From Halogeometricum rufum (lineage in GTDB: Archaea > Halobacteriota > Halobacteria > Halobacteriales > Haloferacaceae): a stretch of 64,000 nucleotides of DNA. Below the pieces are notes generated by a model. The model was not told the DNA's origin. It saw only the letters and a list, made by a program, of their open reading frames with translations, and did no database searches. Made by a program: the position numbers and the translations under genes. Shown here piece after piece: positions 51,301 through 62,376 of this stretch (position 1 is the first letter of the stretch; each line of letters opens with the position of its first letter). The stretch is taken from assembly GCF_900112175.1 (NCBI RefSeq), contig NZ_FOYT01000002.1, positions 868,001 through 932,000 of the forward strand, written 5' to 3'.

Positions 51301-51483
51301 GGCACGGTCCGTCGTCGCCGTCGGGGCGAACGCGACGGAGTCGATTCGTATCGGTCCCGTTTCTGAACCGCGGTTGAGACAACACGCCGTCTAAAATGTT
51401 CTTCAGAGAACACTTTTCGGCCGCTGGGTTCTGACAACGACTAGCGCGTCCGGTCGTGGAACGCGCGTCGAGAGGTGGAACAC

Positions 51484-52239
51484 ATGGAGAAGAGACCGGC
51501 GAGAGAGGAGGTATCGCGGCGAGGAGTACTGAGAGCGGGGACGTTCGCGGTCGGAGGTGTCGTCCTCGGTGGCGTCGGACTTCGAGGCGTCTGGCCGGAG
51601 ACCGGCACCGCCCCGGACCAGAGCGGCGGGACCCTCGTGTCGGCCGTCGAACGGCACGGTCACTACGCCTGGTTCCCTCACGGCCCCGACAGTTGGGGGC
51701 GGTCGACCGCGCCGTTCGACGACGGCGACGGAGAGTCGAGGTGGGCGGCGCAACCGACGGACGGCGGCGCCATCCGGTGTCGCGTCGAGGACCTGCCCGC
51801 AGATCGGAACGCGGGGTTCGACGTCCACCTGGGGGCGCTCGGCGACGTCGCGGAGGTGACCGTAGTCTCGCAGACCGTCGAAACGCAACGGACGACGGGG
51901 CCCGCGACGATGTTCGTCGGACTGTTCCTCGACGTCGACCGGGACGGGGAGTTCTTCCTGTGGGAGGACGCCGACGGGCCGACGGACGACTGGGTCGGGT
52001 TGGGAGACGACGAGGAAGGGGTGTCGGCGGCGGCGGCGGACGGGGAGTTGACCGTCGACGCCGACACCGAGTTCTTCGTCGTCGGGACCGAACGGACCGC
52101 GACGCTGGAGGACCTGAAAGGCGGCGACGTCGAAGGCGTCGACGGCGCGACGGCCGCCGCCCTCTACGTCGGCGTCACGAGTAGCGGCGGGGGGACCGAA
52201 GAAATCGTCGTCGAGGCGGTGGACGTCCGTCGAAGCTGA
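51484..52239 (+). CDS. Tat-exported protein, unknown function
   Basis: 251 residues from the ATG at 51484, with GAGGTGG 6-7 nt upstream (a GTG at 51475 is also in frame). The Tat signal is SRRGVLRAGTFAVGGVVLGG (about 11-30). The mature part has HGHYAWFPHGPDSWGRSTAP, CRVEDLPADRNAGFDVHLGA, TTGPATMFVGLFLDVDRDGE and FFLWEDADGPTDDWVGLGDD, acidic and beta-rich. No membrane helix follows the signal. I do not recognise a family. It precedes the DUF7351-type regulator. Confidence 0.65.
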   Translation: MEKRPAREEVSRRGVLRAGTFAVGGVVLGGVGLRGVWPETGTAPDQSGGTLVSAVERHGHYAWFPHGPDSWGRSTAPFDDGDGESRWAAQPTDGGAIRCRVEDLPADRNAGFDVHLGALGDVAEVTVVSQTVETQRTTGPATMFVGLFLDVDRDGEFFLWEDADGPTDDWVGLGDDEEGVSAAAADGELTVDADTEFFVVGTERTATLEDLKGGDVEGVDGATAAALYVGVTSSGGGTEEIVVEAVDVRRS

Positions 52240-57262: not shown

Positions 57263-57745
57263 CTACCTTTCGGGTCGGTCGACCCGTTCGCCCTGATAGC
57301 TCCCGTCGTACTCGCCGTCGTGGTTCGCACGGGCGAGGACGAGTTGCGCGACGCGCGCACCGGGTTCGAGTTCGACGTCGCAGTGGACCTGCAACAGGCC
57401 CTCGCCCCGGCCCTCGTAGCCGGCGTCCCAGACGGCGGTGTTGAGCATGCAGGAGTTGCGCATGAGCGACGACCGCGGGTAGAGGAAGCCGACGTGGCCC
57501 GCCGGAATGTGAATCGTCTCGGCGTACTGGAGGATGTACCCGCCGGGTGGGAGGGCGTACGCGCCGACGCTCTCGTCTATCGAGACGGCCTCTCTGTCCC
57601 CGATCTCTTTCCCCTCGGTGTCGAGTCGGCCGGGCGAAATCTGTTCGTACAGCGATTCGAGCGTCAGGTCGACGCCGTTGGGCTGTACCTGCGACTCGTC
57701 GGTCGGTTCGACGTGGTCCGCGACGAACGCGCCGCTTCTGAACAT
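57263..57745 (-). CDS. dut: dUTPase/dCTP deaminase family enzyme
   Basis: 160 residues from the ATG at 57745; the upstream frame is read-through. dUTPase removes dUTP by hydrolysis to dUMP. Motifs: QVQPNGVDLTLESLYEQ (early), FLYPRSSLMRNSCML, TAVWDAGYEGRGEGLLQVHC and PGARVAQLVLARANHDGEYD, then GSYQGE at the end. The trimer fold is shared with dCTP deaminase, and some archaeal members do both reactions; which applies here cannot be settled from motifs. It is 54 nt from the PAS kinase gene on the same strand. Confidence 0.82.
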   Translation of the reverse strand: MFRSGAFVADHVEPTDESQVQPNGVDLTLESLYEQISPGRLDTEGKEIGDREAVSIDESVGAYALPPGGYILQYAETIHIPAGHVGFLYPRSSLMRNSCMLNTAVWDAGYEGRGEGLLQVHCDVELEPGARVAQLVLARANHDGEYDGSYQGERVDRPER

Positions 57746-57839: not shown

Positions 57840-60059
57840 TCAGGACGACTCGGCGTCGGCCACCGCCACTTCGAGAGCATCGAGGCGGTCTTCCAGTTCC
57901 GCCTGCCGCTCTCGGAGCGCCTCGTTCTCGTCTTCGAGGTCTTCGACGCGGCCCTCCCTCGCGGCGAGGCGGTCCCTCAGGCGGTCGATACGGTCGTTCT
58001 TCCGTTCGAGTCGATCCGCGAGGCCCTGTATCGCGGCGAGTGCGACGCCGTCCGCGTCGACGCTCGCGATGGTCTCGTCGTCGTCGCCCAACTCGAACGC
58101 GTCGTGGAAGTCTCCCGCCATCGGCCCCATGTGGCGTCCGTCGTCGGTGTCCGTGAACTCCCACGTGCTCACGTCCAGTTCGGTGACGCCGTCGAGGACC
58201 GCGTCCGGCGAGACGGGGGCGATGGACTGCTTTTTCGCGCGTGCGCTGGTGTTGTTGAACGACGGCGCGTACACCGGCATCTGCGAACGGAACTCGTTGG
58301 GACCCTGCGAGCGGAACTCGCTGTCGGTCGCGTCGGCGAAGACGACTGCGCCGTCGTGTGCAGTCCCGTTGTCCGATTCAGTCTTCGCCAGACGGCCGGC
58401 GGCGAAAGAAAATCGCCCGCTTGCCACGTTCTCGGAGCCACCCGGAACGGTCGAACGGACGCCGGTCGCTGTGTTCCCGCCGCCTCCACCAACAGTAGCG
58501 AACTCTCCACTCGCCACGTTGAGGATGCCACCGGCGACTGTGCCTCGCTCGCCAGTCGCCGCGTTATTGAATCCCCCACCGACCGTCGCAGTCTGGCCTT
58601 CGACGCGGTTTTCGATGCCCCCAGCGGCCGTCGCGCCTTCGCCAGCAGCACGATTCAAGAATCCACCACCGACGGTAGCTGAGTCGCCGTCAGCGTCGTT
58701 CCCGCCACCGCCTGCAGCGGTTGCACCCGGACCACTCGCGGTATTCCCCGTTCCACCGCCGATAGTGGCCCCTGCACCGCTAGCCGTGTGGTTGAAGCCC
58801 CCACCGACGGTCGACTCCTCGCCGCTCGCGGTGTTGTTGAAGCCCCCGCCGACGGTGGCGCGCTTGAAAGCTGTGTTGGCCTCGCCACCACTCACCGTCG
58901 CGAAAGGCGCGCTCTCGGGGTCATCTCCCGGACTCCCGGCCTGATTCCGGCGACCGCCGCTCACCGTGCAGAAGTTGTCGAGAGCACGGTTCCCGTTCGT
59001 TCGGTTGTTACCGACTTCGACAGGGCCTTCACCCTCGCCTCCACCACCGGCGACGGTCGTCCCCCGCACGTCGGCGACGTTGTTAGCGCCGCCGGAGACG
59101 GTCGAGTGTTCCCCGCTGGCGCTGTTTCCGACTCCTCCGGCGACGGTCGCGTTAGTGCTCGCGTCGTTCTCAACGCCACCACCAACGGTGGCGTACTGTC
59201 CCGTTGACGCGTTCCGATCACCACCGGCGACAGTCGCGTCCTGACCGTCGGCCTCGTTTCGCCGACCGCCGCCGACCGTCGCGTTCCGTCCGCCCGCGAC
59301 GTTCCCGCGACCCCCGCCGATAGCCGTCTCGTCGCCGCTAGCGTAATTCTGCCACCCACCGGCTATCGTCGCGTATGCCGCCCGAGTGGTGTTTGCGCGG
59401 CCGCCACCGATAGTCACCCACTTGCCGCCGAAGGCCGTGTTGGCCTCGCCGCCACCGACGGTCGCGGACGCGGAACTCTGTCGGTCGTTCCCCGGACTCC
59501 CCGCCCAGTTACGTACGCCGCCGCTGACCGTACAGAAGTCGTCCCACGCCCTGTTCCCGCCTTGTCGCGTCCCTCCACCGGCCGCGTCCGGTATCGCTCC
59601 GTCGTTCGTGAGTCCGCCACCGGCGACGGTCGACCCCTTCCCCTGAGCGGCGTTGTTGTTCCCACCACTAACCGTCGACTGGTCGCCGAGCGCCTGATTG
59701 AGATACCCGCTGCCGACGAACGACTGGAGTCCGCTCGCGACGTTCTCTTGCCCGCCGGCGATGGCCGTGTAGTCGTTCGTCGCCTCGTTTCGGAATCCGC
59801 CGGTGATGGCGGCGTAGTTGCCTGTTGCGCTGTTTTCTTCACCACCAGCTACAACCTGCGTTTCTTCGGGCGCGTTGTTTCTCACACCGGAGAGGACCTC
59901 GCCCGACGCGGTGTCCGTCCCGACGTATCCCAACAACCCGACCGCTCCAAGCGTCGCCAGCACGCCGCGCCGCGACGCGCGGACGAACGGCGGTTCGTCG
60001 GCGTCCGCGTCATCTTCGGTCGGTTCGGTCCCGTCTCCCGCGAGCGGCTTGTCTGTCAT
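57840..60059 (-). CDS. YadA-head-like repeat protein with S74-type chaperone end
   Basis: 739 residues from the ATG at 60059 (an upstream frame extends to 60254 across the promoter). A Tat signal SRRGVLATLGAVGLLGYVG is at 29-47. Residues about 60-560 are many short units of about 14-16 residues, such as ENSATGNYAAITGG, NNTASGEESTVGGG and GNVAGGRNATVGGG, the YadA/hemagglutinin-head pattern. Two longer inserts share FCTVSGG, AGSPG and ATVSGGEANTAF, a larger duplication. At about 605 SARAKKQSIAPVSPDAVLDG, then GPMAGDFHDAFEL and DGVALAAIQGLADRLERKND form an S74 (intramolecular chaperone) domain, followed by a coiled coil (about 680-735). The S74 Ser position reads Thr-Ser-Ala-Arg. Confidence 0.85.
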   Translation of the reverse strand: MTDKPLAGDGTEPTEDDADADEPPFVRASRRGVLATLGAVGLLGYVGTDTASGEVLSGVRNNAPEETQVVAGGEENSATGNYAAITGGFRNEATNDYTAIAGGQENVASGLQSFVGSGYLNQALGDQSTVSGGNNNAAQGKGSTVAGGGLTNDGAIPDAAGGGTRQGGNRAWDDFCTVSGGVRNWAGSPGNDRQSSASATVGGGEANTAFGGKWVTIGGGRANTTRAAYATIAGGWQNYASGDETAIGGGRGNVAGGRNATVGGGRRNEADGQDATVAGGDRNASTGQYATVGGGVENDASTNATVAGGVGNSASGEHSTVSGGANNVADVRGTTVAGGGGEGEGPVEVGNNRTNGNRALDNFCTVSGGRRNQAGSPGDDPESAPFATVSGGEANTAFKRATVGGGFNNTASGEESTVGGGFNHTASGAGATIGGGTGNTASGPGATAAGGGGNDADGDSATVGGGFLNRAAGEGATAAGGIENRVEGQTATVGGGFNNAATGERGTVAGGILNVASGEFATVGGGGGNTATGVRSTVPGGSENVASGRFSFAAGRLAKTESDNGTAHDGAVVFADATDSEFRSQGPNEFRSQMPVYAPSFNNTSARAKKQSIAPVSPDAVLDGVTELDVSTWEFTDTDDGRHMGPMAGDFHDAFELGDDDETIASVDADGVALAAIQGLADRLERKNDRIDRLRDRLAAREGRVEDLEDENEALRERQAELEDRLDALEVAVADAESS

Positions 60060-60396
60060 CTTTCTGATAGCACCGACTCCAGGATACGGACGAACCCGTG
60101 TTATAATCATTTGGCTGTCATTTTGAAAGTGTGATACGAGAGAGATTCGCACGGACGGAGATGCGCCGAGGACCGAATCCGGCCGCACGTGTCGCGACGA
60201 GTGCAATCGCCACGCGAGAGTCACGACGTAGCACCCGGCGTCGGCCGTCCTCACGGGCGAACTACCAACCGGCGAATCGGCCGCCCTCGCACACGTTCAC
60301 TATTATCCATCGAAGAACAAATATGCGTATTATGAACATACCTCTGACCTCAAACACGCGGGATTTATAATCGTAGACAGTCGAAATCGGGACGTT
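60060..60396. promoter_or_regulatory. Divergent promoter region of the YadA-like gene and aconitase
   Basis: 337 bp. Toward the YadA-like gene: gattataac (minus strand, 60099-60108), transcription near 60077, leader about 18 nt. Toward acnA: ggatttataatcg (60361-60373), centred near 60366, so the aconitase mRNA starts 3-4 nt before its ATG. The region 60300-60370 is AT-rich (tatccatcgaagaacaaata). Confidence 0.55.
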
Positions 60397-62376
60397 ATGG
60401 GACAGACGCTCACCGAAAAAATTCTCGACGACCACCTCGTCGAAGGGGAACTCGAACCCGGAGAGGAGATCGGAATCGAGATCGATCAGGTCCTCACACA
60501 GGACACGACCGGGACGATGGTCTGGCTGCAGTTCGAGGCGCTCGAACTCGACGAAGTCCAGACAGAGCTGGCGGCGCAGTACTGCGACCACCAGACGTAC
60601 CAGTTCGACTTCAAGAACACTGACGACCACCGCTTCCTCCGCTCGGCCGCGGGGACGTACGGGGCACACTTCTCTCGCCCCGGCAACGGTATCTGTCACA
60701 ACGTCCACAAGGAGAACTTCGCCGCACCCGGCAAGACGCTCCTCGGTTCGGACTCGCACACGCCGACGCCCGGCGGCCTCGGCCAACTCGCCATCGGCGC
60801 GGGCGGCCTCGACATCTCCGTCGCCATGGGCGGCGGCGCCTACTACGTCGAGATGCCGGAAGTCGTCAACATCCGTCTGGAGGGCGAACTCCCCGAGTGG
60901 GCCACCGCGAAGGACGTCATCCTCCACCTGCTCCGCGAACTCTCCGTGAAGGGCGGCGTCGGCAAGGTGTTCGAGTACACCGGTCCCGGCGCGGATACGC
61001 TCACCGTCCCCGAGCGAACGACCATCACGAACATGGGGACGGAACTCGGCGCCACCTCGTCCATCTTCGGCACGGACGAGAAGACGAAGGACTACCTCGC
61101 GCGACAGGGTCGTGAGGACGAGTACGTCGAACTCGCCCCCGACGAGGACGCCGAGTACGCCGACCAGATTACGGTCGACCTCTCGGACCTCGAACCGCTC
61201 ATCGCCTGCCCGTCGATGCCCGACAAGGTCGTTCCCGTTCGCGAAGTCGCGGGCGAGTCCGTCGACCAGGTCATCGTCGGCTCCTGTACGAACGGCGGCT
61301 ACGAGGACATCCTCCCGGCCGCGAAGATGCTCGAAGACCGCGAGGTGAACAAGAAGACGGAGATGATCGTCGCACCCGGTTCGAAGCAGGCCTCCGAGAT
61401 TCTGGCGCGTCAGGGCTGGACCGCCGAGATGATGGCCGCCGGTGTCAACTTCTCCGAGGCGACGTGCGGTGCCTGTATCGGCATCGGCCACGTCCCCGCC
61501 TCCGACTCCGTCTCCCTGCGGACGTTCAACCGCAACTTCGAGGGTCGCTCCGGCATCGAGGACGACAACGTCTACCTCTGCTCGCCCGAAGTCGCCGCCG
61601 CCGCGGCGCTGAAGGGCGAAATCGTCGACCCGCGTGACCTCTCCGACGAACTCGGCGACCTGGAAGCGCCCGGCGTCGAACTCCCCGACAAGTACGACGG
61701 CTCGAAGGCCGACCTCATCTCGCCCGACGAGGCCGTCGACGACGAACTCATCAAGGGACCGAACATCGGCAACGCGCCCATCGGCGAACCGCTGGAGTCC
61801 GACATCCGCGGTGAGGCCCTCCTGAAGATGGAGGACAACATCACCACGGACCACATCATCCCGGCCACGTCGGACATCCTCAAGTTCCGCTCGAACATCG
61901 AGAAGCTCTCGGAGTTCACGCTCTCCCGCGTGGACGAGACGTTCGCGCAGCGTGCGATGGACGCCGACGGCGGCGTCCTCGTCGCCGGCGAGAACTACGG
62001 ACAGGGCTCCTCGCGCGAGCACGCGGCCATGTGCCCGCAGTACCTCGGCATCGAGGCCGTGCTGGCGCAGTCGTTCGCCCGCATCCACAAGGCGAACCTG
62101 TTCAACTTCGGTATCCTCCCCCTCGCCATCGACGAGGAGACGTACGAGAAGCTCGAACAGGGCGACGACGTCGAAGTCGTCACCGACGTCTCCGAGGCCG
62201 TCGAGTCCGGCGAGAGCGAGTTCACCGTCCGCGTGAACGACGACTGGGAGGCCACGGCGACGCTCAACGCCTCCGAACGCGAACGCCGCATCCTCTCTGC
62301 CGGCGGCAAGCTCCGACTCACGAAGGAGCAGTACGAGCAAGAGGGCAGTGGCGGCGCGACGCCCGCCGACGACTGA
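60397..62376 (+). CDS. acnA: Aconitate hydratase
   Basis: 659 residues. It isomerises citrate to isocitrate, shared by the TCA cycle and the glyoxylate bypass (isocitrate lyase at 29790-30839). The 4Fe-4S ligands are in SCTNGG and ATCGACIGIGHVP. Other family blocks: LGSDSHTPTPGGLGQLAIGA, GGAYYVEMPE, DKVVPVREVAG, and the swivel domain GENYGQGSSREHAAMCPQYL with the catalytic Ser/Arg. The C-terminal SFARIHKANLFNFGILPLAI is also present. It is nearly leaderless and ends before a T7 tract. Confidence 0.94.
   Translation: MGQTLTEKILDDHLVEGELEPGEEIGIEIDQVLTQDTTGTMVWLQFEALELDEVQTELAAQYCDHQTYQFDFKNTDDHRFLRSAAGTYGAHFSRPGNGICHNVHKENFAAPGKTLLGSDSHTPTPGGLGQLAIGAGGLDISVAMGGGAYYVEMPEVVNIRLEGELPEWATAKDVILHLLRELSVKGGVGKVFEYTGPGADTLTVPERTTITNMGTELGATSSIFGTDEKTKDYLARQGREDEYVELAPDEDAEYADQITVDLSDLEPLIACPSMPDKVVPVREVAGESVDQVIVGSCTNGGYEDILPAAKMLEDREVNKKTEMIVAPGSKQASEILARQGWTAEMMAAGVNFSEATCGACIGIGHVPASDSVSLRTFNRNFEGRSGIEDDNVYLCSPEVAAAAALKGEIVDPRDLSDELGDLEAPGVELPDKYDGSKADLISPDEAVDDELIKGPNIGNAPIGEPLESDIRGEALLKMEDNITTDHIIPATSDILKFRSNIEKLSEFTLSRVDETFAQRAMDADGGVLVAGENYGQGSSREHAAMCPQYLGIEAVLAQSFARIHKANLFNFGILPLAIDEETYEKLEQGDDVEVVTDVSEAVESGESEFTVRVNDDWEATATLNASERERRILSAGGKLRLTKEQYEQEGSGGATPADD

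Follow-up and report, generated by a model that had tools for sequence, protein, structure and literature searches.

Can a cell complete a long trimeric fiber in its cytosol and export it in folded form? Long trimeric beta fibers usually either leave the cell unfolded and fold afterwards, or arise within a cell infected by a phage. Archaea, to our knowledge, have neither an outer membrane nor autotransporters. The 64,000-nucleotide window (the whole stretch of DNA that was analyzed) contains a gene, P0001, that is a good test case for whole-fiber assembly inside the cell before export. We consider that its product is probably a cell-encoded, homotrimeric, exported beta-roll fiber with a C-terminal intramolecular S74 chaperone. 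The most interesting question that it raises is the timing of fiber assembly, which bears both on the oligomer size limit of the twin-arginine (Tat) pathway and on how archaea display adhesin-like fibers.

The features of the gene and of the related loci are collected in Table 1. The gene lies on the minus strand; the preliminary description had named none. The start codon corresponds to a matching Met also used by relatives in the genus. The orthologue in genome G122 has an architecture that is identical in kind, with 43% identity overall and 67% over the C-terminal part. The flanking genes, acn and dcd, are separated by 258, 329, 769 and 774 bp in four other genomes of the genus and by 2652 bp in the genome that carries the fiber gene. 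The 769 and 774 bp intervals are unrelated in sequence to the fiber gene. About 450 bp of other sequence lies between acn and dcd in G358 and G391 (L086, L087), and thus the site is variable within the genus. Based on these distances, the fiber gene is an insertion of a single gene into a site that varies.

Table 1. Coordinates of the fiber gene, its parts, its neighbors and related genes (window positions unless a locus, L, is named)
Feature	Coordinates	Strand	Basis or remark
Fiber gene P0001 (Tat signal, beta-roll, S74, coiled coil)	57840..60059, stop included	minus	739 aa from ATG
TTATAA, possible TATA box of the fiber gene	60101..60106	minus	42-47 nt upstream of ATG; direct reading
Twin-arginine motif SRRGVL (residues 29-34), followed by hydrophobic stretch	59958..59975	minus	direct reading
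Beta-roll, ~29 repeats of ~15 aa (residues 69-565), left-handed, UspA1-head type	58365..59855	minus	profile, autocorrelation, AF2
Duplicated segment, copy 1 (family D5), ~130 nt	59430..59559	minus	DNA repeat analysis
Duplicated segment, copy 2 (family D5; CTVSGG..N.AGSPG-D module)	58866..58995	minus	DNA repeat analysis; copies 72% alike in DNA
Core of the S74 domain (intramolecular chaperone, auto-cleavage), residues 605-680	58020..58247	minus	Pfam, profile, AF2
Ser605 codon, predicted nucleophile; predicted cut Thr604/Ser605	58245..58247	minus	aligned with Ser1 of 3gud
Lys610 codon, putative general base in the Ser/Lys dyad	58230..58232	minus	aligned with Lys of 3gud
C-terminal helix/coiled coil (residues 666-735)	57855..58064	minus	Pfam scan, AF2
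dCTP deaminase gene (dcd), downstream neighbor, outside the fiber system	57263..57745	minus	Pfam and locus comparison
Aconitase gene (acn), divergent upstream neighbor, outside the fiber system	60397..62376	plus	Pfam and locus comparison
Partner gene	L041 5502-6830	plus
Partner gene	L048 3864-4733	minus
Partner gene	L053 3565-4728	minus
Partner gene	L039 1312-3141	minus	downstream of haloarchaeal Tat fiber
Partner gene	L038 11552-12928	plus	downstream of haloarchaeal Tat fiber
Partner/histidine kinase fusion	L043 5811-8720
Partner/histidine kinase fusion	L044 5666-8494
Partner/histidine kinase fusion	L045 from about 5686
Same-genus fiber, Peptidase_G2-like end	L058 4967-6916
Same-genus fiber, Peptidase_G2-like end	L059 4869-6800

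The first 28 residues are acidic and without predicted structure, and they are followed by SRRGVLATLGAVGLLGYVG, a Tat-type signal. P0001 has the sequence features of a Tat substrate, an RR motif and a hydrophobic stretch near the N-terminus, and the genome (G000) encodes TatC homologues. The Tat signal claimed in the preliminary description is therefore borne out. Across the family, haloarchaeal fibers have Tat signals or none and bacterial members mostly Sec-like ones. Classified with a simple home-made rule, 36 of the 50 bacterial relatives with a frame closed at the 5' end are Sec-like and 0 of 50 are Tat. A further Tat-type protein of 254 aa (SRRGVLRAG...; window positions 51475-52239, plus strand) is unrelated to the fiber.

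The repeats follow the consensus GG-x-x-N-x-A-x-G-x-x-x-T-V over about 15 residues, and the autocorrelation of Gly across the region peaks at 15, 30 and 7-8. Their best profile match in the PDB is the head of Moraxella UspA1 (3pr7, E 8.3e-25), with a grass ice-binding protein as the second type of match (E 1e-5). The reversed protein gave no beta-roll match, and thus the UspA1 match is not due to composition. Pfam YadA_head (PF05658) had no match up to E 1, although HMMER filters can drop weak matches. The nearest Pfam adhesin-repeat family, UspA1_rep (PF18792), was below the cut-off at E 0.22, and the grass antifreeze beta-roll family PF21300 reached 29.5 bits against a cut-off of 30. The "dozens of YadA-like head units" described initially are thus correct in that about 29 repeats of the trimeric-adhesin type are present, but these are of the UspA1 type and are not matched by the YadA_head family. 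At the DNA level the repeats have a 45-nt spacing with copies that are 63-81% alike, and as protein they are conserved. No DNA tandem repeats were detected, and thus there is no slippage hot spot at that level.

The full-length AF2 model, built on 15 aligned sequences, has a pLDDT of 70, is poor in places and gives the S74 region with low confidence. For this reason we used a model of the last 240 residues (500-739), which was built on 87 relatives and has a pLDDT of 95.4. In this model, residues 1-106 match the heads of trimeric adhesins (3ntn at Z 13.3; 3pr7 at 1.3 Å over 87 residues) and also the monomeric ice-binding protein of Lolium (3ult, 1.7 Å over 86 residues). Residues 102-198 match the S74 structures 3gud, 4uw8, 7dc3 and 3gw6 at Z 5.4-6.2, with superpositions of 2.9 Å over 77 residues for 3gud and 2.1 Å over 82 residues for 7dc3. 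Because scores of Z 5-6 are little above those of unrelated entries, the S74 assignment is mainly sequence-based. The C-terminus is modeled as one long helix. The preliminary description had staked its reading on a beta-solenoid and an S74 fold, and the single-chain model has both.

Pfam S74 (PF13884) matched P0001 with 24.6 bits against a cut-off of 22, and with 29.6 bits in the genome search. Profile matches of the region include the intramolecular chaperone/auto-cleavage (ICA) domain of MyRF (7dc3, E 8e-7) and the GA-1 neck appendage (3gud). Together with the AF2 fold these confirm the S74 domain that had been claimed. The accompanying terminal coiled coil is also present, as a helix modeled at high confidence, but it is a normal part of S74 and no fusion of its own: known S74/ICA domains include a triple coiled coil at the C-terminus (MyRF, PMC8326128).

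The chain of 3gud begins at the Ser that is freed by self-cleavage, and the profile alignment places Ser605 on this Ser and Lys610 on its Lys. The nucleophile motif is therefore Ser605-ARAK-Lys610, with the dyad spacing of four intervening residues kept and the next Asp replaced by Ala. It had been read as TSARAK in place of the common SDxRxK, a register that is one residue off, since Ser605 and not Thr604 aligns with the Ser of 3gud. In published cases (endoNF S911/K916 and MyRF S587/K592) both residues of the dyad are essential, and most of the other residues tested only reduced cleavage when changed (PMC8326128). Of the S74 hits with these columns filled, 45 of 46 from haloarchaea and 71 of 71 from bacteria have both Ser and Lys; the dyad was no part of the patterns used for retrieval, and some haloarchaeal rows are near-duplicates. 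An alignment (A4) chosen on S-x4-K, where Ser and Lys are invariant by construction, was not counted as evidence. The Asp after Ser is present in 64 of 71 bacterial versus 4 of 46 haloarchaeal hits, the other haloarchaeal domains having Ala, Ser or Thr. The nucleophile region is thus not odd: the dyad is intact and the loss of Asp is the haloarchaeal norm. As the dyad is kept, the sequence predicts that P0001 is cleavable after Thr604. We know of no experimental export or cleavage of any haloarchaeal member. One haloarchaeal fiber (L056 4773-5945, minus strand, in G203) has an S74 domain that is without both Ser and Lys.

The family is widespread, mostly bacterial and rarely viral, and is annotated publicly as "tail fiber domain-containing protein". 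Bacterial relatives come from Verrucomicrobiota, Chloroflexota, Lysobacterales, Myxococcota, Planctomycetota and others; at least 307 relatives were found in cellular genomes, and the viral relatives are three IMG/VR contigs and one phage (Itty13). The preliminary description had proposed a search for S74 in other exported haloarchaeal proteins. Based on Pfam S74, 22 of 391 sampled Halobacteria genomes were positive, a lower bound that missed the genome of P0001 itself. Based on a profile of the haloarchaeal domain, about 30 of the 391 had hits below about 1e-29 (weaker hits were to the coiled coil only), and a Tat motif of the same type was found in the 24 haloarchaeal fibers examined. The fusion is therefore no rarity, as proteins of the beta-roll/S74 type are frequent among bacteria and occur sporadically across the haloarchaea. 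In a short-domain tree, which has few columns and many open forks, the non-canonical haloarchaeal S74 domains are largely apart from those of bacteria, and P0001 falls in a haloarchaeal clade of 12 members. Our literature search found no paper joining "tail fiber domain-containing" with haloarchaea. Genome G306 has two near-identical fiber genes (L049 3576-5384 and L057 3527-4630), one of them frame-broken inside the repeats, and other truncated or frame-broken relatives are at L085 and L041. Such broken copies possibly reflect repeat recombination, decay or assembly error.

Among known systems, the heads of type Vc adhesins (UspA1 3pr7/3ntn, BpaC, BoaA and CbpF) have the beta-roll repeat sequence and fold in common with P0001. 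In contrast to trimeric autotransporters, P0001 has reversed polarity, with signal and base at the N-terminus and the chaperone at the C-terminal tip. Its signal is of the Tat type, whereas autotransporters use Sec and outer-membrane insertion, and the Pfam scan of P0001 up to E 1 returned no YadA-type C-terminal beta-barrel anchor family. The S74 domains of phages (endoNF 3gw6, T5 4uw8 and GA-1 3gud) and of MyRF (7dc3) are C-terminal on a trimeric beta fiber, as is predicted for P0001, and share with it a Ser-x4-Lys dyad and a globular domain followed by a coiled coil. P0001 differs from them by Ala for Asp after Ser, by an Arg one place nearer to Ser, and by its carrier, which is a cellular, Tat-signaled protein. 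Bacterial "tail fiber domain-containing" proteins mostly share the two-part layout of beta-roll repeats and S74, but have Sec-like signals and an SDRxxK motif, and the haloarchaeal domains are on largely separate branches. None of the parts is new, and proteins that combine S74 with a beta-roll are common among bacteria; the differences lie in the Tat route, in the loss of Asp from a haloarchaeal motif that keeps its dyad, and in a swap of tips within the genus.

Neighbor analysis identified a recurrent gene near many related fibers, in the five partner-gene loci of Table 1 downstream of a haloarchaeal Tat fiber gene, which encodes a Sec-type signal, a domain of about 180 residues, often a CARDB domain, and a C-terminal membrane helix. 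The ~180-residue domain has no Pfam or PHROGs match and carries the motif C..GG..FVADSGLEV (alignment A6). In several loci the partner gene overlaps the stop codon of the fiber gene, and the partner seems to be an anchor or receptor dedicated to the fiber. In three related genomes, including G041, the partner domain forms one protein with a 7TM histidine kinase (HisKA_7TM, HATPase_c), a fusion that suggests sensing of the fiber or of its tip. Hits to the partner that were strong (E < 1e-40) were found in 14 of 391 genomes, and 12 of these 14 are among the 30 with S74 fibers (hypergeometric p 3e-13, uncorrected for kinship). The genome of P0001 lacks a partner homologue (best E 0.06), and thus P0001 represents a simpler, lone class. 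Weak partner-domain hits (L187-L198, E about 1e-11 to 1e-25) were also recorded; some, e.g., L190, are downstream of viral-tail-fiber-like or LamG genes in haloarchaeal genomes, and the weak-hit domain was not found in viral collections.

The two classes also differ ahead of the Tat signal. A heptad-type coiled coil precedes the signal in 16 of 16 fibers whose genes lie no more than about 7 kb from a partner gene (among them L038, L039, L043, L048, L050, L053 and L206-L210) and in 0 of 8 fibers without a partner, P0001 being one of the 8. The scoring was home-made, on windows of 21 residues that no more than 6 of 300 shuffles matched, and the fibers are not independent. Its place ahead of a cleavable Tat signal would limit this coiled coil to a role before export or in the course of it, and so lends circumstantial support to inside-cell assembly in the partner-bearing class.

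The analysis establishes the gene, its Tat motif, the folds of the repeats and of S74, and the intact dyad; from the families to which its parts belong, we infer that P0001 would form a trimer, cleave itself and act at the surface. Three chains would meet via the C-terminal coiled coil, and the S74 domains would seed the winding of the three beta-rolls and check that it is in register. After trimerization, Ser605 and Lys610 would cut the chain after Thr604 so that the chaperone of about 135 residues could leave. The Tat translocon would export the folded fiber by its N-terminal signals, and the mature fiber would reside at or near the surface; its architecture suggests an adhesive or matrix fiber as the most likely role. 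Lacking a signal, the cut chaperone would stay in the cytosol in the case that S74 works inside the cell; with S74 working outside, the chaperone would be released along with the fiber. In a Tat-signaled fiber with a trimer-sensing protease, the place of the released chaperone, cytosol or outside, would therefore report when and where assembly occurs.

The earlier suggestion that Tat export implies trimerization before export is plausible for P0001, because relatives have pre-Tat coiled coils and because a Tat-tagged, tailspike-like native trimer, WceF of Pantoea, is described (PMC7949094). WceF, a native trimer as P0001 is predicted to be, shares with it a tailspike-like fold, a Tat signal and a cellular genome; it differs as a right-handed beta-helix enzyme, and the available part of the source mentions no S74 domain (PMC7949094). 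Handling of a folded P0001 trimer by Tat is likewise plausible, but at 3 x about 75 kDa it would be large compared with FdnGH, which at 142 kDa is among the largest known Tat substrates (review PMC13186574). More speculatively, and in our view somewhat doubtfully, haloarchaea may finish trimeric fibers in the cytosol, using S74 self-cleavage as the check that assembly is complete, such that Tat exports finished trimers only and the cut chaperone stays behind. The pre-Tat coiled coil of the sister group would then hold three chains and their signals together and be lost with the signal peptide. If true, this would be quality-controlled export of a homotrimeric fiber in folded form. There is an appreciable chance, a little short of even, that chains instead cross Tat singly, as folded or loosely folded rolls, and trimerize and self-cleave outside. 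The match to monomeric 3ult indicates that such a left-handed roll can be stable as one chain; moreover, a pre-assembled trimer is very large for Tat, and P0001 is without the pre-Tat coiled coil of its relatives. However, Tat moves folded proteins including some that need oligomerization (PMC6708511), WceF is a precedent, and the coiled coil of the relatives points to events before or during export.

The other alternatives concern the nature of the protein itself. S74 is classic in phage tail fibers and the relatives are annotated as tail fiber proteins, so that P0001 could be a tail-fiber gene of a halovirus or provirus, or its remnant. We regard this as very improbable: the gene stands alone between acn and dcd, themselves neighbors in all four relatives, and it carries a Tat signal. 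Only Itty13 matched among 50,697 phage records, and by the S74 part alone; the IMG/VR relatives are few next to those in cellular genomes, and PHROGs gives no tail family. Based on the phage, IMG/VR and PHROGs searches and on the housekeeping context, phage or provirus origin was rejected, and P0001 is not among phage structural genes. A monomeric beta-roll, e.g., one that binds ice or matrix, with a vestigial S74 end would accord with the near-threshold score of PF21300 and with 3ult, yet by sequence trimeric UspA1 is much the better match (E 8e-25 versus 1e-5), the dyad and coiled coil are conserved in the G122 orthologue, and ice binding would have no obvious role in a hypersaline habitat; we consider it very unlikely. 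Very unlikely, too, is a decaying or unexpressed acquired gene. The patchy distribution (about 30 of 391 genomes) and broken relatives (a truncated copy in G379, a disrupted frame in G043 and, in some matches, stop codons) would fit decay, but the frame of P0001 is intact over 739 codons, its repeats have diverged in DNA while conserved as protein, and dyad and tip are conserved with G122. The exported homotrimeric fiber thus remains our preferred reading.

At another locus than that of P0001, fibers in two genomes of the same genus (L058, L059) have a Peptidase_G2-like end and coiled coil in place of S74. They share with P0001 the Tat region, the first repeats (GYxGTxxASxEVLSGVxNxAPxxTQVxAGG) and the beta-roll, and the G358 fiber is 52% identical to P0001 over residues 8-104. 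Peptidase_G2 is described as an auto-cleaving intramolecular chaperone domain. The match to PF11962 (E 1.7e-4, 21.5 bits versus a cut-off of 25) was obtained in G358 only, so that this identity of the end is suggestive. If the end piece serves folding, such a trade between two self-processing chaperones on one kind of fiber would be expected. As a widespread haloarchaeal alternative tip, Peptidase_G2 was rejected, with 0 of 194 genomes over threshold in a search of the class at large in which the sibling match is itself sub-threshold.

A comparable arrangement is described for the mosaic adhesive trimeric (MAT) fibers of Bdellovibrio bacteriovorus, which have S74 and NS74 subgroups (PMC10769870). 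These too are cell-encoded, exported long beta fibers with a C-terminal S74 Ser/Lys dyad and tip-swapped sister proteins, and have a signal peptide, a conserved beta-rich domain of about 130 aa and triple-beta-helix shafts (PMC10769870). Judged by that description, P0001 and its siblings share the MAT layout of signal peptide, beta fiber and S74 or other tip. P0001 differs from MAT fibers in its Tat signal, its UspA1-type left-handed beta-roll shaft and its host, an archaeon without an outer membrane; it enters the beta-roll repeats by residue 69. Three further Tat beta-roll fibers (L207, L208 and L209) have another C-terminal domain (YVLRNET..VATIRTTETEF) that is not S74, with a partner gene adjoining.
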